A DNA stretch of 64,000 bases from Cupriavidus consociatus (GTDB lineage: Bacteria > Pseudomonadota > Gammaproteobacteria > Burkholderiales > Burkholderiaceae): contig NZ_JAGIQA010000002.1 of NCBI RefSeq assembly GCF_017814975.1, forward strand, positions 124,001 through 188,000, in the 5' to 3' direction. The notes below the pieces were generated by a model that was given only the letters and a program-made list of their open reading frames with translations, did no database searches and was not told the DNA's origin. Shown here one piece after another: positions 7,919-38,096 of this stretch (position 1 is the first letter of the stretch; the number at the start of each line of letters is the position of its first letter). A program made the translations under genes and the position numbers.

Positions 7919-8021
7919 GCTGCTGTCTCCGTGCGGCGCATTGGCCGCGCTGTGCCGGTGCGTTGCCGGCTTTCTTGTGAACGGGCGCTCGCCGGCGCCC
8001 GGGGTAAAGTCGGATGGCGCC

Positions 8022-9194: not shown

Positions 9195-9224
9195 GGATTG
9201 GTTCCTGTTGCAGCGGTGCGGGGA

Positions 9225-10445: not shown

Positions 10446-10458
10446 GCGGGGCCTCGCT

Positions 10459-12350: not shown

Positions 12351-12432
12351 GCTCCACTCCCGTTCCGTTGATGCGAAGACATCATGTGGCAGCCGCGCCT
12401 TTTGCGGCAGATGCCAGGATCGCGGGGGCGTA

Positions 12433-12447
12433 AACCCACGGTTAGCA
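12433..12447 (+). promoter_or_regulatory. AACC-N3-GGTTAGCA site, copy 1
   Basis: Contains the internal palindrome AACC-CAC-GGTT followed by AGCA. The same 15-bp pattern occurs inverted at 12522-12536. The paired inverted copies 75 bp apart in a divergent promoter region suggest a transcription-factor site; the factor is unknown. Confidence 0.4.
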
Positions 12448-12521
12448 CCGCGGGCAATTCCGGGCTTCGCTGCCGCCTTAGCGCACCAGGCGACAACCGG
12501 GAACTGCCGCGCAACGCCGAC

Positions 12522-12536
12522 TGCTAACCACCGGTT
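12522..12536 (-). promoter_or_regulatory. AACC-N3-GGTTAGCA site, copy 2
   Basis: On the leftward strand reads AACC-GGT-GGTTAGCA, identical to copy 1 outside the three-base spacer. Confidence 0.4.
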
Positions 12537-12727
12537 CACACCGCACCAGCGCGGCCGGCTTCCGCACCGCGCCGGCGCTGGCGCGACGGGCGATGCGCGT
12601 CGGCTTGCGGGGAGTTTCCCCAATCCCCATGTGCCATCCGCTTGCGCGACATTGCCGTTCAGCGCAAGCCGCATGCATCCGGCCGATGGCGGCAGCCGCA
12701 TCCATTCTTTTGCTCAGGGAGTCACGC

Positions 12728-13981: not shown

Positions 13982-13999
13982 ATGCCTGCCCGCACGCCA

Positions 14000-14026
14000 C
14001 ATGCACGCCTGCATGCGGCGTGCATG
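14000..14026. terminator. Hairpin between convergent genes
   Basis: Perfect 10-bp stem (CATGCACGCC / GGCGTGCATG) with loop TGCATGC, starting 18 bp after the MBL stop and ending 4 bp before the Bug stop. Symmetric, so it could act in both directions; no T-run on either side. Confidence 0.45.
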
Positions 14027-14029
14027 CCG

Positions 14030-15037: not shown

Positions 15038-16371
15038 GCCTCCATGGCCTGGATGCCCGGATACGGGAAGGTCTTGCCAAGGTGCGCCTCGCCCGGCACG
15101 TAGAGCCGCAGCGCCACGTAGAAGGGGCCTGCCGGCGCCGGCAGCCAGTTGCCGTGGCGCGCCGCGTCGCGCGGCGCTGCAGCACCCAGGTGCAGGCGCA
15201 GGCTGCCGTCCGGCTCGTAGCGCAGGCTCGGCGAGCGGTCGCCCAGCGAATAGCGGCCGATCGGGTTCTCCACCAGCATGCAGTCGCCCTTGTCATACAT
15301 GGTCAGCGACCAGAACGCCCCCACCTGCGGCAGCCTTCCGGCGGGGAACACCAGCTCGTGCGGCTCGTTGCCGTCAAGCGGGCGTCCGTGCGCGTCGCAG
15401 TCGGCGATGATGTACATGGCCTCTTCCATGCCGAGCGCGCCGATGTAGTTGCGCGCCACCTGCGCGCGCTCGGCATAGCGCGTGCCGAATGACGCGCCGA
15501 TCTCGACCGGCAAGCTCCAGCCGCCACCCAGTGCGGAAGGCATCGGCCGGGCCAGTTCGGCCAGCACCTGCTCCATGGCAGCGCCCAGCAGCGCCACCTG
15601 CGTTTCCTCCAGCGGCACGCCCTCGCACGCGGCACCGAGGCCGAGCACGGCGAAGGCCTGCACGGTCGCCGCCTCGTCCGCGGGCGGCGGGTTCTCGCGC
15701 AGCGCGCGGTTCACCACTTCGGCGTAGCGCCGCACCTGCTGCGCCGACGCGCCGAGGTGTTCGTTGGGCTGCATGCCGACGTCGCAGGCGCGCACCGGGT
15801 CGCCGCCGTCCGGCAGCGTCAGCCGGAAGCGGTCCTGCAGCGCATGCACCGCGGGCAGGTCGTCGGGCCCGTCCACCAGCAGCCGGCCCAGCAGCCACAC
15901 CGCATCGGTCGGACAGGCGATGGCGGTGGCGCCAGCCGGCGCTTGGCCCTGCCAGCCGGGACCGTGCAGCAGGAAGCGCCCGGCCTGCGTGCCGGTGGTG
16001 CGGCTGCCGATGTAGGCAAACGGGTTGGTATAGAAATCGAGCAGCCCGAGCACGTAGTAGCGGCCGGCGCTGTCCGGCACCTCCAGCAACAGCGGCCCCT
16101 GTGACAAATCCAGCCAGGCATTGGTGTACAGCGTGTCGTTGTTGGGCGTGACCACCTGCCGGTGCTGCGGGCCCAGCAGCTGGCGCGTGTGGAAGAACTG
16201 GTTGACCCAGCGCAGCGTGCCGTCGGGGCGCGCATCGGCAAAGGCGCCTTCGCGGCGGCGGCGCGGGCAGGTGGCGGCGCGCATGCGCGCCATTTCATAG
16301 AGCGGCAGCGTGTACAGCACGGCCTCGCGGGCCAGCGCGGGGGTGCGGGAATCAGCGGTGGATGGCGTCAT
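15034..16371 (-). CDS. DUF1254/DUF1214 domain protein
   Basis: 445 residues from ATG 16371 (GAGGAGCG upstream). DUF1254 segment near the N-terminus: VVTPNNDTLYTNAWLDLSQGPLLLEVPDS followed by RYYVLGLLDFYTN. The C-terminal DUF1214 segment: FWSLTMYDKGDCMLVENPIGRYSLGDRSPSL, then NWLPAPAGPFYVALRLYVP. No catalytic function is established for these domains. There is no obvious signal peptide. It lies 13 bp after a paralogous gene and overlaps a Bug gene, which suggests a shared substrate handled by the pair. Residues of the family core (NNDTLY, NW.PAP.GPF) are intact. Confidence 0.78.
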   Translation of the reverse strand: MTPSTADSRTPALAREAVLYTLPLYEMARMRAATCPRRRREGAFADARPDGTLRWVNQFFHTRQLLGPQHRQVVTPNNDTLYTNAWLDLSQGPLLLEVPDSAGRYYVLGLLDFYTNPFAYIGSRTTGTQAGRFLLHGPGWQGQAPAGATAIACPTDAVWLLGRLLVDGPDDLPAVHALQDRFRLTLPDGGDPVRACDVGMQPNEHLGASAQQVRRYAEVVNRALRENPPPADEAATVQAFAVLGLGAACEGVPLEETQVALLGAAMEQVLAELARPMPSALGGGWSLPVEIGASFGTRYAERAQVARNYIGALGMEEAMYIIADCDAHGRPLDGNEPHELVFPAGRLPQVGAFWSLTMYDKGDCMLVENPIGRYSLGDRSPSLRYEPDGSLRLHLGAAAPRDAARHGNWLPAPAGPFYVALRLYVPGEAHLGKTFPYPGIQAMEA

Positions 16372-16384
16372 GGAATTTCGCTCC

Positions 16385-17695
16385 TCAGGCAACCCGGCGC
16401 ACCGGCGGAATGCGGTACTCGCCCGCGATAAAGGCCGGCGCGGGATGGTACAGGCGCAGGATCAGGTAAAACGGGCCCGCGGGTGCCGGCAGCCAGTTGT
16501 CGGCCTGTTCGGGCCGCCGGTGCGAGATCGGGATGACCAGGCTGCCATCGGGCTCCATGCGCAGGCCCGGCGTGCGGTCTCCCACCGCGTAGCGGCCGAT
16601 CTCATTGGCGCTGAAGAAGCGGTCCTCGCCGTACAGCGAGACCGACCAGAACGCCTGCGCCGGCGGCAGCATGCCGGGCGGGAAGCGCAGTTCGTACGCC
16701 CGTGCCCCATGCAGCGGCTCGCTGTCGGCATCGAAATCGGCCATCGCGTAGATGGCTTCGTCGGCGCGCAGCGCGCCGAGGCCCTTCATCGCGGTGCAGG
16801 CGCGCTGCAGCCAGTCGTCGCCATAGACCCCGAGCTTCAGGCTGTAGCCCCAGCTCTTGCGGCCCTGGCTGCGCGTATGCGCCTCGATCAGCTGCATGGC
16901 CTGGCGATATGCGTTCTCCAGGCCGGCGCGGACTTCCGCGCGCAATGCCGTGACATCGATCTCGCCCTCCAGTTTCAGGCCGGCCTTGCGCAGCAGTGTG
17001 AACGCGCCCAGCTCGCGTTCGGCGGGCGGGTACTCGCGCAGCGCGTTGAACAGGTTCTGGAAGAAGTCGAGCGCGTCGTTGCCGGACTCGCACCAGTCGC
17101 GCACGCAGTGCGGCACGGTCTTGCCCGGTGCGTCGAGCGCAAAGCCGCTTTCGAATGCATGGGCCGCGGCCAGGTCGTCGGGCCCCTCCACCAGCACGCG
17201 GCCCAGCAGCCAGACCAGCGAGGTGGGGCACGCCACCACATGCCCGCCTTCGGCATGCTGGCCCGGGCCGACCAGCGTCACCATGCCGCCTTCTGCCGGC
17301 ACGTTGCGCGGGCCCAGGTTCTCGAAGTTGTTGGTGAAAGCATCCAGCAGCTCCACCACGTAGTAGCGGCCGCGTTGCGGCAGCGGCGGCACACGCAGCG
17401 TGACCGGCCCGTCGGCCAGGTTGGCCCAGCCGCAGAAGTACAGCAGGTCGTTGGCGGGCGTAACGACGTCGCGGTCTTCATGCGTCCACTGGCGCTCGCT
17501 CGCCGACAGCGTATTGACCGGCGCGCGGCCATAGCCAGTGGCCTCGCTGACCGCGGTCTGCACCTTGCAGGTACGAATCGTTTCGACCAGCGGATAGCCG
17601 TAGATCGCCAGCGGGATGGCGGCGGCGGCGACCAGCGCTTCCTGGCCGGAACTGTAGACAGGTGCGGAGAAAAGCTGTGGCGCGGGATGGTTCAT
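16385..17695 (-). CDS. DUF1254/DUF1214 domain protein, paralogue
   Basis: 436 residues from ATG 17695 (CCGGAGTCC upstream). It has the same two-domain plan as its neighbour: DVVTPANDLLYFCGWANLADGPVTLRVPP and RYYVVELLDAFTNNFENLG, then C-terminal FWSVSLYGEDRFFSANEIGRYAVGDRTPGL and NWLPAPAGPFYLILRLYHP. The N-terminal 50 residues include AAAAIPLAIYGYPLVETIRT, a segment common at the DUF1254 start. The two paralogues are clearly diverged, so this is an old duplication or a hetero-complex, not a recent copy. Function unknown. Confidence 0.78.
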   Translation of the reverse strand: MNHPAPQLFSAPVYSSGQEALVAAAAIPLAIYGYPLVETIRTCKVQTAVSEATGYGRAPVNTLSASERQWTHEDRDVVTPANDLLYFCGWANLADGPVTLRVPPLPQRGRYYVVELLDAFTNNFENLGPRNVPAEGGMVTLVGPGQHAEGGHVVACPTSLVWLLGRVLVEGPDDLAAAHAFESGFALDAPGKTVPHCVRDWCESGNDALDFFQNLFNALREYPPAERELGAFTLLRKAGLKLEGEIDVTALRAEVRAGLENAYRQAMQLIEAHTRSQGRKSWGYSLKLGVYGDDWLQRACTAMKGLGALRADEAIYAMADFDADSEPLHGARAYELRFPPGMLPPAQAFWSVSLYGEDRFFSANEIGRYAVGDRTPGLRMEPDGSLVIPISHRRPEQADNWLPAPAGPFYLILRLYHPAPAFIAGEYRIPPVRRVA

Positions 17696-17744
17696 GCAGG
17701 GACTCCGGAAAAATGGGCGGAAATAGCGGAAACGCGCGGGCGGC

Positions 17745-18743
17745 TCATTCCTGGGCCGCGCCGCTCGACTTGACCAGCGCGGCCCAGGCGGGCACGTCGC
17801 TGCGCATCTGCGCGGCGAAGGCGTTGCGCGGCTGGGGGGTGTAGCGCATGCCGAGCGCTTCTGCCTGCGCCTTGATGGCGGGATCGCGCATGGCGGCGTT
17901 GGTGGCGCGTTCGAGCTTGTCGACGATCTCGGCCGGCGTGCGCGCGGGGGCGAACAGCGCAAACCAGCTGTCCACCCCGAACGCCACGCCCGCCTCGGTA
18001 AAGGTGGGCACGTCGGGCAGCGCGGGCGAGCGTTCCGAGCCGGTGACCGCCAGCGCCCTTACCTTGCCGCTGCGGATCAGCGGCAGCGTGCCGGCAAGGT
18101 CGGACATGGCCACGGGCAGCGTGCCGCCCATCACGTCGGTCAGCATCGGGCTGACTCCCTTGTACGGGATGTGTCGCAGGCGGATGCCGCCCAGCACGTT
18201 GAGGCTTTCGCCGGCGAGATGGCCGCCGGAGCCGTTGCCCCATGAGCCATAGGTCAGGTCGGCGCCCGGCCGCTTTGCCGCGGCGATCAGCGCGGGCAGG
18301 TCGCGGCCGGTAAAGCCGGGGCCGACGATCAGCACATTGCCGCCGTAGAAGAGGCGGCTGATGGGCACGAAGTCGCGCAGCGGGTCATAGGGCAGCTTCG
18401 GGAAGATCGCCGGCGCAATCGCATGCGTGGCGGAGATGCCGAGCACCAGCGTGTAGCCGTCCGGCGCGGCACGCGCGACCTGAGCCGAGCCGATGGTGCC
18501 GGTAGCACCCGCCACGTTCTCCACCACCACGGTCTTGCCGAGCTCCTTCGACAGGCCCGCCGCCAGCAGCCGGCCGACCACGTCGGTGCCGCCGCCGGGC
18601 GGGAACGGCACGACCAGCCGGATCGGCTTGTCGGGATAGGGCCCGGCGTGCGCGGGGGAAGCCACCCCGCACAGCGCCACGGCCAGCGCGCCCAGTCCGC
18701 GCAGCGCCATGCGCCGCGCCGGCAAGTGCGTGTGCCTTTGCAT
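17745..18743 (-). CDS. Bug (TctC) family periplasmic binding protein
   Basis: 332 residues; ATG 18743 with AGGAGACAAG upstream. Signal peptide MALRGLGALAVALCGVASPAHA. Family marks: YPDKPIRLVVPFPPGGGTD, VVVENVAGATG, ARAAPDGYTLVLG, YGSWGNGSGGHLAGE and GVAFGVDSWFALFAPARTP. It lies between the ADP-forming acyl-CoA synthetase and the DUF1254 pair in one leftward run of genes, so its ligand is probably the acid that the synthetase activates. No permease partner is present. Confidence 0.88.
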   Translation of the reverse strand: MQRHTHLPARRMALRGLGALAVALCGVASPAHAGPYPDKPIRLVVPFPPGGGTDVVGRLLAAGLSKELGKTVVVENVAGATGTIGSAQVARAAPDGYTLVLGISATHAIAPAIFPKLPYDPLRDFVPISRLFYGGNVLIVGPGFTGRDLPALIAAAKRPGADLTYGSWGNGSGGHLAGESLNVLGGIRLRHIPYKGVSPMLTDVMGGTLPVAMSDLAGTLPLIRSGKVRALAVTGSERSPALPDVPTFTEAGVAFGVDSWFALFAPARTPAEIVDKLERATNAAMRDPAIKAQAEALGMRYTPQPRNAFAAQMRSDVPAWAALVKSSGAAQE

Positions 18744-27227: not shown

Positions 27228-28265
27228 CTATGACGCGTCGCCGCGCGGCGCGGCGGTGGAACCGCGCACAATCAGCTGCGGCGTGAGCTGCACGGTGACG
27301 GCATCGGATCCCGGCTTGTCGATCTGCCGCAGCAGCAGCCGCGCCGCCTCCTCGCCCATTTCATGGACGGCGATGCGCACCGTGGTCAGCGGCGGCGTCA
27401 GCGCATCGGCGAACGGCATGTCGTTGTGGCCCACCACCGAAATGTCGGCGGGGCAATCCAGTCCGCGTTCGCGCAGCAGGTCGTAGCAGCCCATCGCCAC
27501 CAGGTCGTTGCCGGCGGCGATGGCGGTGACCGCCGGAAAGGCTTCAAGCAGCTGCGCGCACGCCTGCTTGCCAGCCTCGCGCGAATAGCTGGCGGCCTCG
27601 ATCACATGCCATGCGTCGCGGCGCAGGCGGTGCCGCCTGACCGCCTGGACAAAGCCCTCGCGTCGCAGGAAGCCGGTGGACAGCGCGGCCGGCCCGGCGA
27701 TATGGCCGATATGGCGATGGCCGAGGCCGGCCAGGTGGTCAACCGTCAGCCGCATCGCCAGCAGGTTGTCGCTGACCACGCACGAGACCCGTCCCGTCTC
27801 TTCGCCGCGGTTGACCGTGACGACGGGGATATGCTGCCGGATGCAGTAGTCGAGCACCGCGTCCTCGCGCTCCGCCGTCGCCAGCACCAGCCCTTCGACC
27901 TGCCGGCCGATCATCTGGTCGATGATGAAGCGCTGCCGGCTCTTGTCGGTACCGGCGTTGACGACGATGGGCACGTAGCCCTGCTGCGCCAGCACCGACT
28001 CGATCCCCGCCAGGATCGGCGGGAACACCGGGTTGGCGATATCGGGCAGCACCACGCCTACCAGGCCGGAGCGCTGCGTGCGCAAGCCCGCGGCGATGCG
28101 GTTGGGGCGGAAGCCGCGCGCCTCGGCCACCTCCAGGATGCGCGCCGCCACGTCCTGCGCCACCAGATGCCGCGTGGCCGGGTTCATGACCCGCGAGACC
28201 GTCGAGTAATGCACGTCGATCTCGGCGGCCAGGTCTTTGAGGGTGAGGCGCTTGCGCTCGGACAT
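27228..28265 (-). CDS. LacI-family transcriptional regulator
   Basis: 345 residues. LacI HTH with LTLKDLAAEIDVHYSTVSRVMNPATRH at residues 7-33 and the hinge helix RPNRIAAGLRTQRS, then the periplasmic-binding-like effector domain (LVGVVLPDIANPVFPPILAGIE, TAIAAGNDLVAMGCYDLLRERG, ISVVGHNDMPFADALTPPLTTVRI). It lies downstream of the seven-gene dioxygenase operon on the same strand, separated by 470 bp. The perfect LacI-type operator TGCAAACGTTTGCA at that operon's promoter (35014-35027) is its most likely target, as no other LacI gene is in the window. A CATTG-C-CAATG palindrome at 28322-28332 could serve autoregulation but is unproven. Confidence 0.88.
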   Translation of the reverse strand: MSERKRLTLKDLAAEIDVHYSTVSRVMNPATRHLVAQDVAARILEVAEARGFRPNRIAAGLRTQRSGLVGVVLPDIANPVFPPILAGIESVLAQQGYVPIVVNAGTDKSRQRFIIDQMIGRQVEGLVLATAEREDAVLDYCIRQHIPVVTVNRGEETGRVSCVVSDNLLAMRLTVDHLAGLGHRHIGHIAGPAALSTGFLRREGFVQAVRRHRLRRDAWHVIEAASYSREAGKQACAQLLEAFPAVTAIAAGNDLVAMGCYDLLRERGLDCPADISVVGHNDMPFADALTPPLTTVRIAVHEMGEEAARLLLRQIDKPGSDAVTVQLTPQLIVRGSTAAPRGDAS

Positions 28266-28735: not shown

Positions 28736-29728
28736 CTACTCTCCCGCCCTCACGCCGGACTGCCGCACCACCGGCGCCAGCTTGCCGATTTCCGCCTGGA
28801 TATACGCGGCAAACTCCTGCGGTGACGAACGCCGCGGCTCGGCGCCCTGCGCGGCCAGGCGCTCGCGCACGTCGGGCGATGACAGCGCCTTGCCGATCTC
28901 GGCGTTGAGGGCGTCGACGATCTCGCGCGGCGTCCCGGCTGGGGCCAGGATGCCGAACCAGGAATCGAAGGCATAGCCCGGAAAGCCGGACTCCGCGACG
29001 GTCGGGATATCCGGCAGCGCGCTGGCCCGCCTGGCCGTGGTCACCGCCAGCGCGCGCAGCTTGCCTTGCCTGACGAACGGCATGGCCGAGACGGAGGGCG
29101 CGAACATCATGTCGCCCCGGCCGGCCATGACGTCGGTAAGCGCTTCGCCGGTGCCCTTGTACGGGATATGCGCGATGTCAATCCCGGCCTGCATCTTGAA
29201 CATCTCGCCGCTGAGGTGCGTGGAGCTGCCGGAGCCCGCGGAGTCAAAGTTCAGTGCGCCGGGCGTGGCCTTGGCCGCCGCCACCACGTCGCGCACTGAC
29301 TTGTACTTGCTGGCCGCGTTGACCACCAGCACATTGGGCACGCTGGCCACCAGCGACACCGGCGCGAAGTCCTTCACCGTGTCATAGCCGAGCCTGGGAT
29401 ACAGCGTGGCGTTGATCGCGTGCCCGACCGACACCAGGATCAGCGTGTAGCCGTCCGGCGCCGCCTTGGCCACGCCGGTGGCGCCGACGGTGCCGCCCGC
29501 GCCGGGCCGGTTGTCGACGATCACCTGGTAGCTGCCGCCCTCGCCCATCTTGCTGCCGAGGATGCGCGCCAGGATATCGGTGGCGCTGCCGGCCGAGAAC
29601 GGCACCACCAGCCGGATCGGCTTGGTGGGGTACTGGGGCTGCATACTGGCGGCGGAGGCGGCGGGGGCTGCCGCCAGCATCAACGTCGAAGTCAGCGCCA
29701 GCACGGCGCCCTGGATGGATCGAATCAT
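28736..29728 (-). CDS. Bug (TctC) family binding protein, aromatic operon
   Basis: 330 residues; ATG 29728 with GAGGAGACAAAG upstream. Signal peptide ends AAPAASAAS. Family marks: YPTKPIRLVVPFSAGSATD, VIVDNRPGAGG, AKAAPDGYTLILVS, FDSAGSGSSTHLSGE, HIPYKGTGEALTDVMAG, FDSWFGILAPAGTP. Last gene of the dioxygenase-SDR-BKACE-MDR-cupin-porin-Bug operon, 42 bp after the porin stop. Its likely ligand is the aromatic acid or a downstream acid the operon degrades. No permease gene accompanies it. Confidence 0.88.
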   Translation of the reverse strand: MIRSIQGAVLALTSTLMLAAAPAASAASMQPQYPTKPIRLVVPFSAGSATDILARILGSKMGEGGSYQVIVDNRPGAGGTVGATGVAKAAPDGYTLILVSVGHAINATLYPRLGYDTVKDFAPVSLVASVPNVLVVNAASKYKSVRDVVAAAKATPGALNFDSAGSGSSTHLSGEMFKMQAGIDIAHIPYKGTGEALTDVMAGRGDMMFAPSVSAMPFVRQGKLRALAVTTARRASALPDIPTVAESGFPGYAFDSWFGILAPAGTPREIVDALNAEIGKALSSPDVRERLAAQGAEPRRSSPQEFAAYIQAEIGKLAPVVRQSGVRAGE

Positions 29729-29770
29729 TCTTTGTCTCCTCATTGCCGGTCGGGACGCGTGTGCCGCGCC

Positions 29771-30874
29771 TCAGAAGAAATGCCGCATGCCGAGCGCGAC
29801 GGTCTGCGGGTCGGCGCCCGCGCTCACGCCCAGCTCGTTGATGGCAAAGTCATAGATCGCGTTGCGCTTGTTGTTGATACGGCTGTAGTAGGCAAACAGC
29901 GCCGTGCGCTTGGACAACGGGTAGTCGTAACCCACCGTGACCTGCGTCGCGCCCGTCTCCGCGCCGCTGCGGAAGAAGCCGACGGTCTCGGTGGCGTTGC
30001 CGGCGCCGTTGCTGGCCAGGCCAAAGCCGACCCGCACGCTGCCCGGCCCCAGCTTCTGCACCACCGACGCGTAATAGCCGTTGCGCGTCAGGTCGCCGGT
30101 GGCGGTGCGGTAGTGCAGCCGTTCATAGAGCAGCGCGACGGTCGTGCTCGGGAACTTGTAGGAAACGCCCGCCTTCATCGCATCGTCGTTGCGGCCCGCG
30201 GTCTGGTAGTGCTGGTGGATTTCATAGGCCAGCACCACATTGAGCGGACCGTTGTCGTAGGCGGCGGAAAACGAGTACAGCCCCGGGTTGCGCGGCACCG
30301 TGATCTTTTCCTCATTGATGCCCCACGCGGCCGCGCCGCTGAAGCCCGCCAGCGACGGCGTCTTGTAGACGATGATGTTTTTCTGCCGGCGGTCGAACGC
30401 GCTGGTGTCCTGCACGTTGTCCGAGCTTGACGTGGAGCCGTTGCCGATCAGCGCCATGTAGCCCGCGGTGGTCGGGTAATACGGATCGTAGGCCGAGGTC
30501 GCCTCGGTGTAAGGCGTCTGCCAGTGCCCCATGAACAGCGTGCCGGCGCTGCCCTGCAGCCCGATGCGCGAATTTCGCCCCGCGATCTGGCCCTGGCCGG
30601 TGTCGAGCGAGACGTTGCTCTCGATCTGCCAGATTGCCTTGAGGGCGCCGCCCAGCCCTTCCTCGCCGCGCATGCCGAACACGGAGCGGTTATTGGTCAG
30701 GCGGCCGACGCCGCCGAGGCGCGTGCCGTCGGTCGCCGTATTGGCATACGAATACTCCAGCGCGGTGTTGAGGCGCCCGTACAGCGTCACGGACGACTGC
30801 GCGCCGGCGTGGCCGCTGCAGGCGGCGCCCACGGCCAGCAGCAGCAAGCGGCACCGCTTGGAAACGGATGTCAT
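29771..30874 (-). CDS. Gram-negative trimeric porin (Burkholderiales type)
   Basis: 367 residues; ATG 30874 with CAGGGGTAG upstream. Signal peptide MTSVSKRCRLLLLAVGAACSGHAGAQ, then the conserved first strand SSVTLYGRLNTALEYSY. GEEGLGGALKAIWQIESNVSLDTGQGQIAGRNSRIGLQG is the porin strand 2-3 block with the L-box pattern, and the protein ends in SVALGMRHFF-type terminal aromatics (here ALGMRHFF). It follows the cupin gene by 100 bp and precedes the Bug gene, so porin and receptor are supplied together for uptake. Confidence 0.87.
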   Translation of the reverse strand: MTSVSKRCRLLLLAVGAACSGHAGAQSSVTLYGRLNTALEYSYANTATDGTRLGGVGRLTNNRSVFGMRGEEGLGGALKAIWQIESNVSLDTGQGQIAGRNSRIGLQGSAGTLFMGHWQTPYTEATSAYDPYYPTTAGYMALIGNGSTSSSDNVQDTSAFDRRQKNIIVYKTPSLAGFSGAAAWGINEEKITVPRNPGLYSFSAAYDNGPLNVVLAYEIHQHYQTAGRNDDAMKAGVSYKFPSTTVALLYERLHYRTATGDLTRNGYYASVVQKLGPGSVRVGFGLASNGAGNATETVGFFRSGAETGATQVTVGYDYPLSKRTALFAYYSRINNKRNAIYDFAINELGVSAGADPQTVALGMRHFF

Positions 30875-30974
30875 TGGTCTACCCCTGTGGTTGTGGTCAT
30901 TCTTTTTGTAGTCATTTCCGTGGTCAGTGCCGTGAAATCCGGCCCTGCAATCGTTTGCATTCCGGGGAGAAGGA

Positions 30975-31316
30975 TTACCCCTCCGGATACGGCATCGCCA
31001 GCAGCAGCATGGCAGGCCGGTTGCCCGGATTGGACACCTGCCGCGCCTCGCCCGGCGCCAGGCACACCGAGTCGTACTGCCCCAGCGTGACGGCCTCGTC
31101 CGGCGTATGCACGCAGACTTCGCCCTCGAGCACGACGTAGTGCTTTTCCACCGGCGAGGCATCCAGCGCGGTATGCCCGCCTGGCAGCAGCACCGAGACC
31201 CCGAGCCACAGTGCCTCGGACGGCCCCGCCTCGTGCCCCTGCAGCCGCAGGCAATGCATGCCGTCGTGATTGGGCGGGAAATACGCCGGCGCCCCGGTAA
31301 AACGGGTCGTGTTCAT
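30975..31316 (-). CDS. Small cupin-domain protein
   Basis: 113 residues, with its ATG overlapping the MDR stop as ATGA. Beta-barrel cupin pattern: GVSVLLPGGHTALDASPVEKHYVVLEGEVCVHTPDEAVTLGQYDSVCLAPGEARQVSN. Cupin motif 1 is GGHTALDASPVEKHYVVLEGE; the usual GX5HXH is degenerate (H48 and H59 region), so metal binding may use fewer His. Motif 2 (GEARQVSNPGNRPAMLL) lacks the usual His. Possibly a non-metal or weak-metal cupin, with an isomerase/decarboxylase or binding role in the ring-degradation pathway; not determinable. Confidence 0.75.
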   Translation of the reverse strand: MNTTRFTGAPAYFPPNHDGMHCLRLQGHEAGPSEALWLGVSVLLPGGHTALDASPVEKHYVVLEGEVCVHTPDEAVTLGQYDSVCLAPGEARQVSNPGNRPAMLLLAMPYPEG

Positions 31317-32290
31317 GGCTTGAGCACCACGCGCTCGGTCGCGCCTTGCAGGACCGCGCGGTACGCGTCCTTGGCATTGGCCAGTGCATAGGTGTAATCG
31401 GACAGCACCGGGAACGGCCGCAGCGCGCCCGAGGCGAACATCGGCGCGAGCTGGTCCAGAATCTTCGCGCACGCGCCGCTGTCCAGCGCCAGGGTGTCGA
31501 CGCCGACGTACGTATGCTGGCCGCGGTAGAAGGCGAAGATGTCGAACGGCACCGGCTTCTCGATGGTCGAGATAAAGATCTGCGCCGCGCCGACGGCCAT
31601 CGCCTGGTTGGCCTGCTCGAAGTACGGGCTGCCGACGGTGTTGTAGACGATGTCGGCGCCATGGCCGCCGGTCTCGTCGCGCACCACCCCGGCGATCGCT
31701 TCGCGGCTGGCGTCGATCATGCGCACTTCGCCGCTGGCATGGCCGCGGTAAGGCTCGGCCGTGCGCTCGACGGCAAAGACGCGCGCACCCAGCGCCGTGG
31801 CGATCTGGATGGTGGCCTGTCCCACCTTGCCATTGCCGCCACAGACCAGCACGGTGCTGCCGGCCTGCGGCATGCCGGCGCGGCGCAGGCCCTCATAGGC
31901 AGTGATGAACGGCACGCCCACGGCGCCGGCCTCCAGCAGCGACACCGAGGCCGGCTTGGCGCGCACCGCGCTGGCCGGGATGCGCAGGTACTTGCCATGC
32001 GTGCCGTCGCGGCGGATGCCCAGCTCGCCGCCGCTGCCCCACACCTGCAGGCCCAGCAGCGCGGCGGGCCCGTCGACCACCAGGCCGGCATAGTCGCGGC
32101 CGGGCGTGCGCGGCCACACCGCATGCGGCATCAGGCCCAGCGTCGCCTTCACGTCGCTGGGATTGACCCCGGCACTGGCAACTTCGATGATGCATTGGTC
32201 CGCCGCGGCATCGGGGCGCGGCACGCCGAGCAGCTCGAGCTGCAGCGCGTCGATATCGGCGGCTTTCTGGTTCACGCGGATCGTGTTCAT
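31313..32290 (-). CDS. MDR-superfamily oxidoreductase, quinone-reductase-like
   Basis: 325 residues, the length of zinc-free MDR enzymes. GRDYAGLVVDG (GroES-like domain), then NADP-binding STVLVCGGNGKVGQATIQIATALGARVFAVERTAE with the AxxGxxG-type pattern GGNGKVG. No zinc-binding structural cysteine cluster is seen. The likely reaction is NAD(P)H-dependent reduction of an enone or an oxidation of an alcohol. In this operon, between BKACE and cupin genes, it could act as the reductase for maleylacetate-like intermediates; that is inference only. Ribosome site GAAAGGAC before ATG 32290. Confidence 0.82.
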   Translation of the reverse strand: MNTIRVNQKAADIDALQLELLGVPRPDAAADQCIIEVASAGVNPSDVKATLGLMPHAVWPRTPGRDYAGLVVDGPAALLGLQVWGSGGELGIRRDGTHGKYLRIPASAVRAKPASVSLLEAGAVGVPFITAYEGLRRAGMPQAGSTVLVCGGNGKVGQATIQIATALGARVFAVERTAEPYRGHASGEVRMIDASREAIAGVVRDETGGHGADIVYNTVGSPYFEQANQAMAVGAAQIFISTIEKPVPFDIFAFYRGQHTYVGVDTLALDSGACAKILDQLAPMFASGALRPFPVLSDYTYALANAKDAYRAVLQGATERVVLKP

Positions 32291-32331
32291 GAGTTCTGTC
32301 CTTTCAGGAATCGCAATTCGGTTGGCGGGGA

Positions 32332-33216
32332 TCACGCTTCGCGCAGGCCCAGCGTGCGGCGCGCTTCGGCCGGCGACGCGACCTCGCCGCCGAGCGAGCG
32401 CACGATGTCGCGGGCCTTGGCGACCAGCGCGGCATTGCTGGGGGCCAGCACGCCCTTCTCCAGGTAGATGTTGTCTTCCAGGCCCACACGCACGTGGCCG
32501 CCGGCCAGCCATGCCTGCGCCACGATCGGGAACTCGGCGCGGCCAATGCCGAAGGCTGACCAGTGCGCGCCGGCGGGCACCATGTTGCGCGCATAGAAGA
32601 TGGTCTCGGGCGTGGGCGCGAAGCCGTACTTGACGCCCAGCACGAAGGTCCACAGGCCGGGCCCGTCGAGCACGCCTTCGCGGATGAAGTCGAGCGCCAT
32701 GTTGAGGTCGCCCGAGTCGAAGATCTCCAGCTCCGGCATGACGCCGGCGGCGCGGATCGCGGCGGCCATCTTGCGCACGTTGGCGGGCGTGTTGATGACC
32801 ACGTCGCCGCCGGAGTTCATGGTGTTGAGGTCGAGCGAACACACATCCGGGCGCAACGCGGCGATGTGCTCCACGCGCTTGCCCGGCGGCAGCAGCGTGG
32901 TGCCGGGCGCGGCCACGCGCGGCTCCTCTTCGCTCGGCACGAAGCGGCCGCCGGGACCGGTGGTGAGGTTGATGATCAGCGTGCGGTTGCGCGCGCGGAT
33001 GCGGTCAATGACATCCGCGTAGTACTCGAGCGCCATCGACGGGCGGCCCGTTTCGGGATCGCGCACGTGGATATGGGCCGCGGCAGCGCCGGCTTCGGCG
33101 GCTTCGAGCGCGGCGTCGGCGATCTGCGCCGGCGTGACCGGCAGGCCGGGATGCTGCTCGGGGGTGACGATATTGCCGGTCACCGCGCAGGTGATGATGG
33201 TCTTGCGTGCGTGCAT
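32332..33216 (-). CDS. BKACE (DUF849) beta-keto acid cleavage enzyme
   Basis: 294 residues. The metal motif AAHIHVRDPETG (H48, H50) and the third ligand region VGLEDNIY (E247) are intact, as are IINLTTGPGG and SLDLNTMN, all marks of the BKACE family. Known members condense a beta-keto acid with acetyl-CoA to give acetoacetate and a new acyl-CoA, with a divalent metal (usually zinc). The substrate depends on active-site residues not interpretable by eye. The neighbours (intradiol dioxygenase, SDR, MDR) suggest a beta-keto acid derived from ring cleavage. No good ribosome site precedes ATG 33216. Confidence 0.88.
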   Translation of the reverse strand: MHARKTIITCAVTGNIVTPEQHPGLPVTPAQIADAALEAAEAGAAAAHIHVRDPETGRPSMALEYYADVIDRIRARNRTLIINLTTGPGGRFVPSEEEPRVAAPGTTLLPPGKRVEHIAALRPDVCSLDLNTMNSGGDVVINTPANVRKMAAAIRAAGVMPELEIFDSGDLNMALDFIREGVLDGPGLWTFVLGVKYGFAPTPETIFYARNMVPAGAHWSAFGIGRAEFPIVAQAWLAGGHVRVGLEDNIYLEKGVLAPSNAALVAKARDIVRSLGGEVASPAEARRTLGLREA

Positions 33217-33273
33217 GAGGGAATGTTGCGAGCGTTGGTGAGGAACAAGGAAAAAGCGGAGCGCGGCGCCGGG

Positions 33274-34023
33274 CTAGCCGAGCTGCCGGCCGCCGTCGAC
33301 GACGATGGTGGTGCCGGTGGCAAAGCGCAGCGAGGTCGCGCACGCGGCAATGGCATCGGCCACGTCCTGCGCCTGGCCGATGCGTTGCAGCGGCGTCGTC
33401 CTCGCGGCGCGCTCGTTGAAGCTGCTGTCGCGGCCGGGCACGAACGCGCTGTCGACCACGCCGGGCGACACGTTCAGCACGCGGATCTGCGGCGCCAGTG
33501 CGCGCCCCAGCGACATCGCCATGACATCGAGCCCGGCCTTGGCCGCGCAGTACGCCACGTTGCTGCCCTGTCCGTTGCGCCCCGCGATGGAGCCGACATT
33601 GACCACCAGCCCGTCGCCGCTGGCGCGCAGGTGCGGCGCGAAGGCGCGGATCGCGGCAAACTGGCCGCGCCAGTTGATGGCGAAGAGTTCGTCGATCAGC
33701 GCGTCGTCGAGCGCGTCGAGATCGCCGTGCGGGATGGCCCGCGTAAAGCCGGCGGTATTGACCAGCATGTCGACCCGGCCGTAGTGGCGGATGACTTCGT
33801 CGGCCAGCGCGCGCAGCGAGGCGCTGTCGGCGACTTCCGCGACCGCGGCAAGATGGTTGCCTGCCGGCAGCGCGGCCGCCGCGCTGGCCGCCTTGTCGGC
33901 GTCGCGGCCGGTCAGGACGATGCTCGCGCCGAGGCGGGCCAGCGTTTCACCGGCGGCAAAGCCGATGCTGCCGGTGCCGCCGAGGATCACGGCAACCTTG
34001 CCGGATAGGGGGGATGCGCTCAT
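33274..34023 (-). CDS. Short-chain dehydrogenase/reductase
   Basis: 249 residues, classical SDR length. NAD(P)-binding GGTGSIGFA (residues 15-23), the NTAG strand (89-92), catalytic S145 in VGSIAG, Y158 and K162 in YCAAK, and the C-terminal GTTIVVDGGRQLG are all present, so it should be active. An Arg at T-G-R-D (residues 38-41) after strand 2 favours NADP. It lies 41 bp after the dioxygenase stop. It may act on a hydroxylated ring or a ring-cleavage product. The ATG was chosen by family alignment; the upstream open frame runs into the dioxygenase gene. Confidence 0.85.
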   Translation of the reverse strand: MSASPLSGKVAVILGGTGSIGFAAGETLARLGASIVLTGRDADKAASAAAALPAGNHLAAVAEVADSASLRALADEVIRHYGRVDMLVNTAGFTRAIPHGDLDALDDALIDELFAINWRGQFAAIRAFAPHLRASGDGLVVNVGSIAGRNGQGSNVAYCAAKAGLDVMAMSLGRALAPQIRVLNVSPGVVDSAFVPGRDSSFNERAARTTPLQRIGQAQDVADAIAACATSLRFATGTTIVVDGGRQLG

Positions 34024-34064
34024 GTTCGGAGTTGAATTTGCAGTGAAGGGAAAACGGCCGGCGT

Positions 34065-35000
34065 TCAGTCGATCGGCGGCCTGGGAAAGGTCTGCTGACC
34101 CGGCTCCAGCGTGAAGTCGAAGTCCAGCGTGTAGAACGGCGCCGGCACGTCGCCCCACGGGCTGCGGCCCTGTTCGTGCCGCTGCAGCGAGCCGACCAGT
34201 TGCTGGTGCACGCCGAAGGTGACATCCGAGGCCAGCTTGCCGGCCTCGTCGGCAAATACCTGTGTCACCAGCGTCCGGTATCCCGGCGCCGCGACGATGA
34301 AGTGGATATGCGCCGGCCGGTACGGATGGCGCTGTTGCGCGGCCAGCAGCGCGCCAACCGGGCCGTCGGTCGGCACCGGGTAGCCGGCGGGACGCACCGT
34401 GCGGAAACGGTAGCCGCCGTCGGCATCGGCATGGAAGCAGCCGCGCAGGTTGCGGTCGGGCTGGGTCGGGTCCTGGTTGTCGTACAGGCCGACCGGCGAG
34501 GCCTGCCATACCTCGACCAGCGCGCCGGCCAGCGGCGTGCCGTCGGTTCCGCGCACGGTGCCGCTGACCAGCAGCGGCAGGCCGGGCGCGTCGTCCTGCA
34601 CCACGCAGTCGCCGCAGGCATAGCGCGGCGCGTTGGCGCGGTAGAACGGTCCCAGCAAGGCGCCAGGCGTGCGGCCGTCGCGGGTGCTGTTGTTCATCAC
34701 CGTCACCAGCGTCGACAAACCCAGCACGTCCGCCGCGAGCACGACCTCGTTGTGCGTGGCGTGCGTCGCATGGCCAAGGCTGGCGAGCCAGCCCAGCGCG
34801 AACTCGAACTCTTCGTCGGTCAGGCGCGCTTCGCGCAGAAAGCCGTGCAGATGCCGCACCAGCGCATCCATGACGAAACGCAGGCGTGGGTTGCCGGTGT
34901 CCGCCATCGCGGCCAGGACGATGCCAGTGACCGAATGCTCGTCGTCTATCAGCGTGGGGCGCGGGGCCGGCGATACCTGCCGCGCGATCGATGTGTCCAT
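34065..35000 (-). CDS. Intradiol ring-cleavage dioxygenase, hydroxyquinol 1,2-dioxygenase-like
   Basis: 311 residues. The ferric-iron ligands are all visible by analogy to catechol 1,2-dioxygenase: Y173 in GLYDNQDP, Y207 in RPAGYPVP, H231 and H233 in PAHIHF. The GLYDNQDP form of the first motif resembles the GLYDVQ of hydroxyquinol dioxygenases more than the GFYSHF of catechol ones. The N-terminal helical dimerisation domain (FVMDALVRHLHGFLREARL...LGWLASLGHATH) is present. Product would be a cis,cis-muconate or maleylacetate-type acid. ATG 35000 follows AAAGGAGG. It is the first gene of the operon and lies just after a strong promoter with a LacI operator. Confidence 0.88.
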   Translation of the reverse strand: MDTSIARQVSPAPRPTLIDDEHSVTGIVLAAMADTGNPRLRFVMDALVRHLHGFLREARLTDEEFEFALGWLASLGHATHATHNEVVLAADVLGLSTLVTVMNNSTRDGRTPGALLGPFYRANAPRYACGDCVVQDDAPGLPLLVSGTVRGTDGTPLAGALVEVWQASPVGLYDNQDPTQPDRNLRGCFHADADGGYRFRTVRPAGYPVPTDGPVGALLAAQQRHPYRPAHIHFIVAAPGYRTLVTQVFADEAGKLASDVTFGVHQQLVGSLQRHEQGRSPWGDVPAPFYTLDFDFTLEPGQQTFPRPPID

Positions 35001-35013
35001 GTCATGCCTCCTT

Positions 35014-35027
35014 TGCAAACGTTTGCA
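35014..35027. promoter_or_regulatory. LacI-type operator for the dioxygenase operon
   Basis: Perfect 14-bp palindrome TGCAAACGTTTGCA with the central CG common to LacI-family sites. It lies right after the -10 box at 35030-35035 and before the AAAGGAGG ribosome site, so bound protein would cover the transcription start. Confidence 0.75.
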
Positions 35028-35029
35028 GT

Positions 35030-35057
35030 ATTATCGGCGGCCGGCGCCGGAGGTCAA
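35030..35057 (-). promoter_or_regulatory. Sigma-70 promoter of the dioxygenase operon
   Basis: On the leftward strand: TTGACC (35057-35052), 16-bp spacer, GATAAT (35035-35030). Four to five of six bases match each consensus. The operator begins 2 bp downstream of the -10. Confidence 0.65.
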
Positions 35058-35459: not shown

Positions 35460-36764
35460 ATGTTCTCCGCCGCCCAGCGTCCGCAGCCGACGCACCCTGT
35501 TCCCTGCCCGCCCCGCAGCGTGGCCACGCCGCCGCTGCCGCAGTGGATCGCAGCCCGCATGTCAGAGCACTTCGAGACCCGGCTGGGCAAGCTCTGGGGC
35601 GGTGACCACCTGCTGCACGGGCGCAAGCCGGGTCCCGACGCGCTGCACCTGAGCAGCAACGACTACCTCTGCCTGCTGGGCGAGCGGCCGTTGCTGGAAG
35701 CGCAGGCGCGCGCGCTGCTGGACGAACAGCCCGAGCTGCTGATGTCGTCCGTGTTCCAGTACGGCGAGACGCCGCAACGGCACGTCGAGCGCAAGCTGGC
35801 CAACCTGATGCAGGCCGAGGACGGGCTGATCGCGCAGTCCGGCTGGGCCGCCAACGTCGGCCTGGTGCAATGCATCGCCGGGCCGGGCGTGCCGGTCTAT
35901 ATCGACATGAACGGCCACGCCTCGCTGTGGGAAGGCATCACCGCCGCCGGCGCGCAGGCCGTGCCGATCCGCCACAACGACGTGGGCCATGCGCGCCGCC
36001 AGGCCGAGCGCTTCGGCCCCGGCGTGATCATGGTCGACGCGGTGTACTCCACCACCGGCAGCGTGGCGCCGCTGGAGGAATACGTCGCGGTGGCGGAAGC
36101 GTCGGGCTCGGTGCTGGTCGTCGATGAATCGCACTCGCTCGGCACCCACGGGCCGTCGGGCGGCGGACTGGTGCCGGCGCTGGGGCTGTCGGAGCGGGTG
36201 CATTTCCGCACCGCGTCGCTGGCCAAGGCCTTCGCCGGGCGCGCGGGCTTCGTCACCTGCTCCAGCCGGTTCAAGGACTTCTTTGCGGTCGAGTCGAGGC
36301 CAGCCATTTTCAGTTCCGGGCTGCTGCGCCACGAGGTCGCGTGGTTCGACGCCGCCATCGATTTCATTGCCGCGGCGGACCAGCGGCGCGAACAGCTGCA
36401 TGCGATCACCCGCCAGACCCGCGAAGCGATCAGTGCGCTCGGGTACAACATCAGCGAAGGCTCCGAGCAGATCATCGGGCTGGAGGCAGGCACCGAGCCG
36501 CAGGTGATGGTCCTGCGCAACGCGCTGCAGCAGCGCGGCATCTTCGGCGCGGTATTCTGCTCACCGGCAACCCCCAAGAATCGGGCATTGATGCGACTTA
36601 CCCTGCATGCGAAACTTAGCGCCGGTGAAATCGACCGGCTGGTCAGCGTCCTCGCCAGTATCCGCGACGAGGTGCGTCTGGAAGAATGGTCATCGACGCG
36701 CCGCAGCCGGCGCAAATCCCCCAATCCCAAGGAGGAGCTCGCCGCAAGCTCCCGCGAGGAGTAG
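35460..36764 (+). CDS. cqsA: CqsA/LqsA-like alpha-hydroxyketone autoinducer synthase
   Basis: 434 residues. A PLP-dependent fold-type I enzyme of the alpha-oxoamine synthase-related group. Seen: substrate/cofactor strand ALHLSSNDYLCLLG, glycine-rich QSGWAANVGLVQ, VVDESHSLGTHGPSGGG (D222 and H225 for PLP), and PLP-lysine ASLAKAFAGRAG (K256). The phrases LHLSSNDYL and FRTASLAKAFAGRAGF are those of CqsA (Vibrio) and LqsA (Legionella) rather than of KBL or BioF. It would join an acyl-CoA with an amino donor (SAM in CqsA) to start alpha-hydroxyketone signal synthesis. A basic C-terminal tail (TRRSRRKSPNPK) is extra. The next gene, 3 bp away, is a CqsS-like histidine kinase. Confidence 0.82.
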   Translation: MFSAAQRPQPTHPVPCPPRSVATPPLPQWIAARMSEHFETRLGKLWGGDHLLHGRKPGPDALHLSSNDYLCLLGERPLLEAQARALLDEQPELLMSSVFQYGETPQRHVERKLANLMQAEDGLIAQSGWAANVGLVQCIAGPGVPVYIDMNGHASLWEGITAAGAQAVPIRHNDVGHARRQAERFGPGVIMVDAVYSTTGSVAPLEEYVAVAEASGSVLVVDESHSLGTHGPSGGGLVPALGLSERVHFRTASLAKAFAGRAGFVTCSSRFKDFFAVESRPAIFSSGLLRHEVAWFDAAIDFIAAADQRREQLHAITRQTREAISALGYNISEGSEQIIGLEAGTEPQVMVLRNALQQRGIFGAVFCSPATPKNRALMRLTLHAKLSAGEIDRLVSVLASIRDEVRLEEWSSTRRSRRKSPNPKEELAASSREE

Positions 36765-36767
36765 CCG

Positions 36768-38096
36768 TTGGAGATGGAAGCAGAGTTGGCCGACCCGGGC
36801 GGCCGCAAGCACCGCGCCGGCCTGTCAGGACTTGCCGGCCTCGCCCGCCGGACCTGGCAGTCGGTGTTCGATACCGCGGCACGGGCCATCCTGCTCGACG
36901 AGGAAAGCGTCATCCGCCTGCGGCGGATCCAGATGGTGGGCGCGCTGGGGGTCATCGGCCACCCGCTCTACTACCTGATCTGGTCGTACGTGTTCCCGCA
37001 GCCCTACGAGAACCTGTGGCTGCGCCTGGTCTGCACCGCGCTGTTCGTGCCGCTGCTGTTTGCGAGGGCGTTCTCGCACCGGCGCTGGCTGCCGCCGTAT
37101 GCGCTGTTTGCGATCACGGTGGGCATGCCGTTCGCCTTCATCTTCCTGTACCTGGAGAACGGCGGGTCGATGGCCTGGGCGGAGTCGGTCATCATTGCCG
37201 TGGTGATCCTCTATCACTTCAATACGGCCTTCGCGACCATCTCGCTGCTGTCCGGCGCGGCCGCCGCGGTGGCGCTGTTCGTGCTGGCCGGCAACTCCAT
37301 GGGCGGCATCCCGTGGGAGCCGGTGCTGCTGCAGTTGCCGATCATCGGCTTCGTGATCTCGGTGCTGGTGGTGATCAAGCTCGACCGCCAGTTGCTGGTC
37401 GAGCAGAAGCGGCGCGGCATGGCGGCGGCGCTGGCCACCGTCGCGCATGAGCTGCGTACACCGCTGACCAGCCTGAGCATCAGCGCGAGCGGCCTCAAGG
37501 CACGGCTGCCGGCAGCGCTGGACCAGGACGCGCCGCGCCGCGAGGGGCTGATGCAGGCGGCGGCGCGCATGGAGTCCGACATCGCGCACATCAGCAACAG
37601 CATCGAACTGCTGGTGGCCAACTCCAAGAATCCGGAAAAGGCCACGCGCGAGCTGTTCGATCTGGGGGGCGTGATCCGCGACACCATCGCCCGGTTTCCG
37701 TTCGACAACCCTGGCCGCGACATCGTCACGTTCGATCTGCCCGGCCCGGTGCGCGTGCTCGGCAACGCGCAGCTGTTCGGGCTGGTCATGACCAACCTGC
37801 TGAAGAACGCGCTCGAAGCGATCAAGCGCGCCGGCAAGGGTGACATCCGGATCCACTGCGAGGTGCGGCCGGACGGTGTGCACGTCACCTTCCGCGACAC
37901 CGCGACCGGGGTGCCGCCGAAGGTGCTGGCGCGCATGTTCCAGCCCTTCTTCTCCTACCCGGCGCACCGTGGCACCGGCATCGGGCTGGCGTTCTGCCAG
38001 AACGTGCTGACCAGCTGGGGGGCAGGCATCAGTTGCCGTTCCGTCGAGCACGAGTTCACGGAGTTCGACATCCGCTTCCCGCACAAGGACTGCTGA
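36768..38096 (+). CDS. CqsS/LqsS-like membrane sensor histidine kinase
   Basis: 442 residues. An N-terminal block of about six membrane segments (residues 55-205, from MVGALGVIGHPLYYLIWSYVF to PIIGFVISVLVVIKL) resembles the CqsS signal-binding domain, including IGHPLYYLIW. The kinase core follows: H-box TVAHELRTPLTSLSIS (H227), N-box MTNLLKNALEAI, G1-like DTATGVPP, F-box FQPFFSYPAHRGTGIGLAFCQNV. It ends without a receiver domain, unlike V. cholerae CqsS. A TTG start at 36768 is 6 bp from GAGGAG; ATG 36774 is the alternative (12 bp). It is 3 bp after the autoinducer synthase gene, so the pair forms an operon. No response regulator gene is near. Confidence 0.8.
   Translation: MEMEAELADPGGRKHRAGLSGLAGLARRTWQSVFDTAARAILLDEESVIRLRRIQMVGALGVIGHPLYYLIWSYVFPQPYENLWLRLVCTALFVPLLFARAFSHRRWLPPYALFAITVGMPFAFIFLYLENGGSMAWAESVIIAVVILYHFNTAFATISLLSGAAAAVALFVLAGNSMGGIPWEPVLLQLPIIGFVISVLVVIKLDRQLLVEQKRRGMAAALATVAHELRTPLTSLSISASGLKARLPAALDQDAPRREGLMQAAARMESDIAHISNSIELLVANSKNPEKATRELFDLGGVIRDTIARFPFDNPGRDIVTFDLPGPVRVLGNAQLFGLVMTNLLKNALEAIKRAGKGDIRIHCEVRPDGVHVTFRDTATGVPPKVLARMFQPFFSYPAHRGTGIGLAFCQNVLTSWGAGISCRSVEHEFTEFDIRFPHKDC

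Follow-up and report, generated by a model that had tools for sequence, protein, structure and literature searches.

The 64,000-nucleotide stretch of the Cupriavidus consociatus genome analysed here (contig NZ_JAGIQA010000002.1, positions 124,001 to 188,000; hereafter the window) carries on its minus strand a set of eight genes that starts with an aromatic ring-cleavage dioxygenase and ends with a LacI-family regulator. Between these are genes for a short-chain dehydrogenase/reductase (SDR), a beta-keto acid cleavage enzyme (BKACE), a medium-chain dehydrogenase/reductase (MDR), a cupin, a porin and a Bug receptor, and all eight products have Pfam family assignments. The initial annotation of this DNA described the first seven as an operon, and all seven are where it placed them, on one strand and closely spaced with an ATGA overlap; the LacI gene and the operators escaped it. 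The features, in window positions, are as follows.

34065..35000, minus strand: intradiol ring-cleavage dioxygenase, putatively of the hydroxyquinol 1,2-dioxygenase type (PF00775 and PF04444); GGAGG 5' of the ATG at 35000
33274..34023, minus strand: SDR, FabG-like (PF13561/PF00106)
32332..33216, minus strand: BKACE, subfamily of BsfD (PF05853)
31313..32290, minus strand: MDR-family reductase, candidate maleylacetate C=C reductase (PF00107/PF08240)
30975..31316, minus strand: small cupin (PF07883)
29771..30874, minus strand: outer-membrane porin (PF13609)
28736..29743, minus strand: Bug/TctC-type periplasmic solute receptor (PF03401)
27228..28265, minus strand: LacI-family transcriptional regulator, proposed operon repressor (PF00356 and PF13377)
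35030..35057, minus strand: sigma-70-like promoter TTGACC-16-GATAAT, a consensus match only; CTTG...ATAAT is conserved in aligned promoters
35014..35027, no strand: operator palindrome TGCAAACGTTTGCA, just 3' of the -10 box of the dioxygenase promoter
30946..30959, no strand: second operator, with a single mismatch, within the 100 bp between the cupin and porin genes

From dioxygenase to cupin the genes are separated by 41, 57 and 41 bp, followed by the 4-bp ATGA overlap of the MDR and cupin genes. The cupin-porin gap is 100 bp, the porin-Bug gap is 27 bp (42 bp with the alternative Bug start at 29728), and the LacI gene begins 470 bp past Bug. A single promoter had been proposed for the set. 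There is indeed a sigma-70-like match at 35057-35030, but a second operator sits 5' of the porin gene and the single shared promoter is therefore probably incomplete. The absence from the window of a coenzyme A (CoA)-transferase, thiolase, maleylacetate reductase or cycloisomerase gene, also claimed initially, was borne out by searches of the genome. These placed no pcaF/thiolase, pcaI-type CoA-transferase or MR_MLE cycloisomerase match (E <= 1e-3), and no maleylacetate-reductase-like match (E <= 1e-30), in the window stretch (C153:124001-188000).

The closest PDB match to the dioxygenase is hydroxyquinol 1,2-dioxygenase 1tmx (214 bits, E 2.5e-62), the best catechol enzyme reaching 142 bits, and its scores against the catechol equivalog models are far below cut-off. 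It has the Dioxygenase_N and Dioxygenase_C domains and keeps the 2-Tyr 2-His iron site (Y164, Y197, H221 and H223, 1tmx numbering) as well as D83. We take Asp83 to be a hydroxyquinol marker in these dioxygenases. The hydroxyquinol-like character suggested initially is thus supported, and the protein is predicted to be of the hydroxyquinol 1,2-dioxygenase type. A catechol enzyme was considered and rejected on the catechol model scores, the PDB ranking and the pocket residues.

Asp83 is present in 23/23 BKACE-linked dioxygenases and in all seven sampled maleylacetate-reductase-linked ones, the latter a chosen subset. Position 83 is Gly in the dioxygenases linked to HpaH/HpaI (6/6) and in those from pca-like clusters (3/3). 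The residue table retains L119, whose stretch holds a stop taken to lie ahead of the annotated start; the reductase-linked L082_3817m, which was badly aligned in another alignment, is without Asp83 and the iron-site residues there. In a tree of 40 dioxygenases, which omits row L119_8001p, 14 with a maleylacetate reductase within 9 kb lie on one side (97/85) and 17 BKACE-linked enzymes on the opposite side (98/97), together with the HpaH/HpaI-linked group. The search for maleylacetate reductases used three query proteins, of which two carry that annotation. Of the 25 more distant loci L059-L083, a maleylacetate reductase lies within 9 kb at 18 and a BKACE of the window kind at none. The Gly83 sister dioxygenases at L118, L119, L120, L162, L169 and L172 are followed by HpaH- and HpaI-like genes, neighbours that point to another ring, possibly that of pyrogallol, and to a lower route of the aldolase type. 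At L166, L167 and L168 a Gly83 dioxygenase of the same clade has a thiolase on one side and protocatechuate 3,4-dioxygenase-like subunits on the other, as determined by a Pfam scan for L166 and by reading for the other two.

Is the pairing of this dioxygenase with a BKACE found in related genomes, as the initial annotation asked? It is strongly conserved. The order dioxygenase-SDR-BKACE-MDR-cupin-(porin)-Bug-LacI is kept in 20/20 Cupriavidus/Ralstonia loci, these being the loci with a close dioxygenase (78–93% identity). The Bug and LacI genes occupy the same place in all 20 and the porin, at a coverage of at least 0.9, in 18. Mean identity over the 20 loci is 93.3% for the BKACE, the highest of the operon, and 82.3% for the dioxygenase; SDR identity ranges from 81 to 96%. 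A dioxygenase of at least 73% identity is present in 18 of 35 other Cupriavidus genomes, a set that probably overlaps the 20 loci, and SDR and BKACE genes adjoin it in every one of the 18. A nineteenth genome, G023, has SDR-BKACE-MDR-cupin-LacI and a 55% identical dioxygenase about 5 kb off. Close relatives of the BKACE in an order-wide search of 399 genomes came from the organism's own genome, with one further match at 53%.

The arrangement extends beyond the genus. On plasmids, the best 21 of the 40 listed dioxygenase matches (at least 50% identity, some of them near-copies) each have a BKACE match within 6 kb. We compared 37 loci outside the genus: 20 plasmid loci among L101-L121, the five loci L158-L162, L089, and L163-L173; L084, a fragment, was excluded from neighbourhood counts. 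Dioxygenase, SDR, BKACE and cupin genes occur together in 17/37, a count that is no frequency estimate because the loci were picked from BKACE or dioxygenase matches (the best 40 each of 229 and 389 plasmid records). The MDR is present in 16 of the 17. Their hosts are plasmids of Skermanella, Rhizobium, Shinella, Bosea, Ensifer, Sinorhizobium, Pararhizobium and Caballeronia, and three further genomes. In a less biased phylum sample, 3/11 dioxygenase loci (47–54% identity) have the module; two of the other eight have HpaH/HpaI, three are in pca-like clusters and three have none of these. Module transporters vary (TRAP, branched-chain ABC, Bug, DctA), and a hexapeptide gamma-carbonic-anhydrase-like protein is encoded beside 7/17 outside-genus modules. 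Positions 1-1134 of L108 gave no family match.

The module also has an operator of its own. The exact 14-mer TGCAAACGTTTGCA is present in 20/20 Cupriavidus/Ralstonia loci, GCAAACGTTTGCA is invariant in 20 aligned promoters 3' of CTTG...ATAAT (L051 was left out of the alignment), and the second site between cupin and porin is found at 13/20 loci. Within one mismatch of TGCAAACGTTTGCA, the only sites in the 8.3 Mb genome are the two operon copies, and the reversed control gave no site in the whole genome; in a scan of the window allowing up to two mismatches, shuffled sequences averaged 0.21. Across the genus TGCAAWCGWTTGCA occurs in 23/36 genomes (reversed control in 1), that is, in 20/20 genomes with the module and 3/16 without. 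In G023 one site stands 5' of the detached dioxygenase gene and another 5' of the SDR-BKACE-MDR-cupin-LacI unit, linking the two in a single regulon. Outside the genus the pattern was found in 9/17 modules. The locus therefore has both marks of a LacI-controlled regulon, a linked LacI gene and a conserved palindrome at its promoters, and the operon is a conserved, separately regulated module. The LacI protein would bind the palindrome and repress the operon.

Operator copies are not confined to the module in every genome. In G002 and G023 (L088 and L087/L198) they are also found 5' of a porin gene, of a gene resembling aromatic-acid symporters and of a pair encoding an aldehyde dehydrogenase and a TRZ/ATZ-type amidohydrolase. 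Against the aromatic acid/H+ family, whose cut-off is 418.55, the G002 symporter gene reaches 377.7. These sites may represent a larger regulon, which may reveal the substrate. In R. bangladeshense (L112) an aldehyde dehydrogenase-amidohydrolase pair lies inside the module. Elsewhere in Cupriavidus (L196, 354-2521) a variant, TGCAATCGATTGCA, lies between another LacI-family gene, perhaps encoding a paralogous regulator with the same type of site, and a divergent gene that is MDR-like by reading and has no NCBIfam match at E <= 1e-25. L181 and L197 resemble L196 by reading.

The BKACE belongs to PF05853 (338.6 bits, gathering threshold 24.8). Its zinc ligands H48, H50 and E247 are intact and the CoA contacts R226, Y251 and K254 are kept. 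The best PDB match is 9zsc, BsfD, a phosphonate-antibiotic enzyme in which, according to passages of PMC12871164, Arg91 is near the distal phosphonate. Arg91 is present in all 23 aligned subfamily rows, and a distal carboxylate held by it would suit maleylacetate or 3-oxoadipate. The same passages suggest that Phe166 matters for BsfD chemistry. This Phe is shared by the BKACE and also by two enzymes of the genome that score over the cut-off of the 3-oxoadipate model NF053568, so Phe166 by itself is no mark of the BsfD reaction and was dropped as a marker of non-cleaving chemistry. In trees, all 22 sampled module BKACEs form a clade with an Agrobacterium BKACE, whose gene has a dioxygenase and maleylacetate reductase pair some 4 kb away, and with a BsfD homologue from a B. 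stagnalis plasmid (96/92; 94/95 in a wider tree). The homologue (L113, 6001-6900; 57% identity) belongs to a phosphonate cluster, adjoining phosphoenolpyruvate mutase and lumazine synthase genes. The tree nests it inside the module clade (96/97), but a tree that unites the module BKACEs with the Agrobacterium one and leaves the homologue outside was not rejected (approximately unbiased p 0.09), and for this reason we place it in or beside that clade. The grouping hints that BsfD may have been recruited from catabolism.

The MDR is matched best in the PDB by 3gaz, an alcohol dehydrogenase superfamily protein, followed by polyketide enoyl reductases, 4ida and quinone oxidoreductases. The ripening-induced protein 4ida presumably acts on enones. 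Since maleylacetate is an enone, reduction of its C=C bond by the MDR is plausible. SDR and cupin genes are present in 17/17 outside-genus modules. The cupin has a full-length match to NF050094, named beta-D-galactosidase, at 106.7 bits (cut-off 175), which suggests no role, and its PDB sequence search gave no match better than E 0.026. Read by eye, the alignment of 17 module members shows the conserved motifs RLQG.EA, EK.Y and DS..AP.E.R with their charged residues, and not the usual metal histidines. Predicted structures were of low confidence and too poor to search (mean pLDDT 61.8 for the cupin, 45.4 for the MDR).

Computation thus established gene content, conservation, a common operator, family placement and conserved catalytic residues. 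From these we infer the substrate, each reaction, LacI binding and the direction of regulation. Our interpretation, to which we give slightly less than an even chance, is a LacI-controlled catabolic operon for a hydroxyquinol-type ring that ends in BKACE cleavage. The substrate would be a 1,2,4-trihydroxylated ring or close derivative, arriving as or with an organic acid and imported by the porin and Bug receptor. The compound or a product would bind the LacI protein and free the TGCAAACGTTTGCA operators. The dioxygenase would then open the ring between two adjacent hydroxyls to give 3-hydroxymuconate/maleylacetate, a product that is itself a beta-keto acid and carries a second carboxylate. 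In the order of steps that we prefer, though only tentatively, the MDR would reduce the enone C=C of maleylacetate to give 3-oxoadipate, which the BKACE would condense with acetyl-CoA and split into acetoacetate and succinyl-CoA, a C4 acyl-CoA. Maleylacetate reductase, CoA-transferase and thiolase would be unneeded, as the MDR reduces and the BKACE splits with acetyl-CoA. The initial annotation had drawn a route of this kind from dioxygenase through MDR or SDR to BKACE. Given the intact BKACE residues, the dioxygenase type, the conservation of the pair and the C=C and quinone reductase matches of the MDR, the chain is chemically coherent, but it leaves the SDR and cupin without a role.

Several findings weigh against this interpretation. 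The scheme has no step for the SDR or the cupin; perhaps the SDR acts before ring cleavage. The BKACE, for which activity on 3-oxoadipate had been predicted, has intact zinc and CoA residues but scores 178.8 bits against the NF053568 equivalog cut-off of 350, and identity with the known 3-oxoadipate enzyme was rejected on this score. Its closest characterised relative, BsfD, is described in passages of PMC12871164 as acetylating a phosphonate beta-keto acid, with no cleavage. All 23 BKACE-linked dioxygenases have Leu107, Leu108 and Val199 in place of the Val, Phe and Ile of 1tmx; the pocket therefore differs from that of classical hydroxyquinol dioxygenases, and the ring may carry a substituent and differ from plain hydroxyquinol. 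A maleylacetate reductase lies within 9 kb at 3 of 21 loci (the window and L039-L058), each time on the opposite strand, and at L160 a separate pair of dioxygenase and reductase genes lies about 6 kb away. The operator pattern is absent from 8/17 outside-genus modules. A 3-oxoacid CoA-transferase subunit pair, both above cut-off, follows the Sinorhizobium RAC02 module together with DctA and malic enzyme genes. This fits acetoacetate as the product, weakly: it is the case in 1/17 outside-genus modules, and the pcaI_scoA and pcaJ_scoB models do not separate acetoacetate from 3-oxoadipate transferases. Neighbouring CoA-transferase genes were dropped as support on these two grounds.

The genome also has classical enzymes and 3-oxoadipate-type BKACE genes elsewhere: C237 has pcaF and pcaI-type genes, C170 and C66 have genes resembling maleylacetate reductase, and the two genes that pass the NF053568 cut-off (488–490 bits) are on C170 and C186. 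The module is therefore not needed for 3-oxoadipate itself, which further counts against our interpretation. The initial annotation had said that a catechol-using dioxygenase alongside a classical pathway elsewhere would tell against it; the classical enzymes are there, but the dioxygenase pocket argues against catechol use. C170 carries what looks like a standard hydroxyquinol cluster (L085, G000:C170:1-20000, 2855-18116), in which genes for another dioxygenase of the hydroxyquinol type (44%), a small protein and a protein resembling maleylacetate reductase adjoin an SDR gene, a sugar ABC transporter and an inositol 2-dehydrogenase that scores above cut-off. A gene over the NF053568 cut-off is 10 kb away; perhaps this is a cyclitol-to-hydroxyquinol route.

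Might the ring be a substituted one? A carboxylated or alkylated hydroxyquinol, for example, would give a product beyond the reach of maleylacetate reductase, and the SDR and cupin would carry out the extra steps. The altered pocket of the 23 BKACE-linked dioxygenases and the constant presence of SDR and cupin speak for this, as do the organic-acid-type transporters (Bug, TRAP, branched-chain ABC), the operator 5' of the symporter gene in G002 and G023 and the ordinary hydroxyquinol cluster elsewhere in the genome. Asp83 and the iron site are unchanged, however, and we regard a substituted ring as somewhat unlikely. The steps could also run in the other order, maleylacetate being itself a beta-keto acid. 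The BKACE would then act on it to yield maleyl- (or fumaryl-) CoA beside acetoacetate, and reduction of this enoyl-CoA by the MDR would give succinyl-CoA. Polyketide enoyl reductases are among the MDR matches, and the gamma-carbonic-anhydrase-like protein beside 7/17 modules is of a hexapeptide kind that includes CoA thioesterases. The MDR matches also include quinone reductases and 4ida, which fit reduction first equally well, and we consider cleavage before reduction unlikely.

Two other explanations separate the BKACE from such a pathway. The BKACE and SDR may be an independent pair, oxidising a hydroxy acid to a beta-keto acid and cleaving it, with the dioxygenase product passing to the classical pathway elsewhere, whose enzymes the genome does have. 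Divergent SDR and BKACE genes lie in two dioxygenase-free loci (L110, L111), and passages of PMC6365646 propose SDR-BKACE pairs for deoxyribonate catabolism. Yet dioxygenase and BKACE stay together or share an operator across two classes, and at none of the 21 loci (window, L039-L058) is there a maleylacetate reductase within 9 kb on the dioxygenase strand, making an independent pair improbable. Alternatively, the BKACE may act like BsfD, transferring acetyl to a beta-keto acid with decarboxylation to give a beta-diketone. The two share Phe166 and Arg91, BsfD is the closest characterised relative and the trees group the BKACE with the BsfD homologue; but the two NF053568-passing enzymes also have Phe at this position and the presence of uptake and ring-cleavage genes in the operon is in keeping with catabolism, so that we think this very improbable.

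How does the module compare with known systems? It shares with the classical hydroxyquinol pathway (hydroxyquinol 1,2-dioxygenase and maleylacetate reductase, then PcaIJ/PcaF) a homologous dioxygenase with Asp83 and the iron site and a presumed maleylacetate product. It differs in lacking maleylacetate reductase, the usual partner in a classical hydroxyquinol operon, as well as CoA-transferase and thiolase, in having SDR, BKACE, MDR and cupin, and in its separate dioxygenase clade and proposed LacI control. Replacement of PcaIJ/PcaF by a BKACE is itself a published idea, proposed in passages of PMC6449761 for a catechol cluster of R. eutropha H16 and of PMC8963497 and PMC12379598 for Methylobacterium pca clusters. 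The headline of the initial annotation, a BKACE in place of the classical end, is therefore a variant of it. In that Kce/BKACE beta-ketoadipate variant, too, a ring-cleavage keto acid and acetyl-CoA are proposed to give succinyl-CoA and acetoacetate. In those passages the enzymes are part of catechol or protocatechuate clusters, with 3-oxoadipate as the predicted substrate; the window BKACE scores below the 3-oxoadipate family cut-off, and its neighbours are a hydroxyquinol-type dioxygenase, SDR, MDR and cupin. BsfD, from flavophos biosynthesis (9zsc; passages of PMC12871164), has the same zinc, CoA, Arg91 and Phe166 residues and a beta-keto acid substrate with a distal anionic group, a likeness to the presumed substrate here; it is biosynthetic, by acetyl transfer and decarboxylation, and no intradiol dioxygenase was found in the L113 locus. 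The deoxyribonate oxidation cluster resembles the module in its SDR adjoining a BKACE and its transport genes, and differs in its sugar-acid substrate and in having no dioxygenase among the genes named in the passages of PMC6365646. Passages of PMC8879955 report no growth of C. metallidurans CH34 on hydroxyquinol.

On the other side of the promoter, divergent from the operon on the plus strand (35460-38096), is a gene for an alpha-hydroxyketone-type autoinducer synthase, above its NCBIfam cut-off, and the gene 3' of it reads like a sensor kinase. Among the 20 Cupriavidus/Ralstonia loci the synthase gene is found only at L039; it is also in the four closest other genomes (L010-L013).

No published description of the module was found among the matches listed in the hydroxyquinol, BKACE/DUF849 or 3-oxoadipate-cleavage literature. 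The idea of a BKACE replacing PcaIJ/PcaF had already been put forward; what is new is the separate module, the BKACE subfamily and the regulon. It is possible, though doubtful, that these together represent an undescribed lower pathway for hydroxyquinol-type rings, under LacI control and shared by two proteobacterial classes. A BKACE subfamily of its own would there cleave maleylacetate or 3-oxoadipate (or a substituted form), an MDR enone reductase would take the place of the iron-type maleylacetate reductase, and BsfD would have been recruited from this pathway. The regulon with its 14-bp operator would offer a handle for finding the true substrate by induction. If the proposal is true, the hydroxyquinol branch of aromatic catabolism would gain a lower route that needs no thiolase, a BKACE subfamily that plasmid annotations call only '3-keto-5-aminohexanoate cleavage protein' would acquire a function, and an origin would be suggested for the phosphonate-antibiotic enzyme BsfD.

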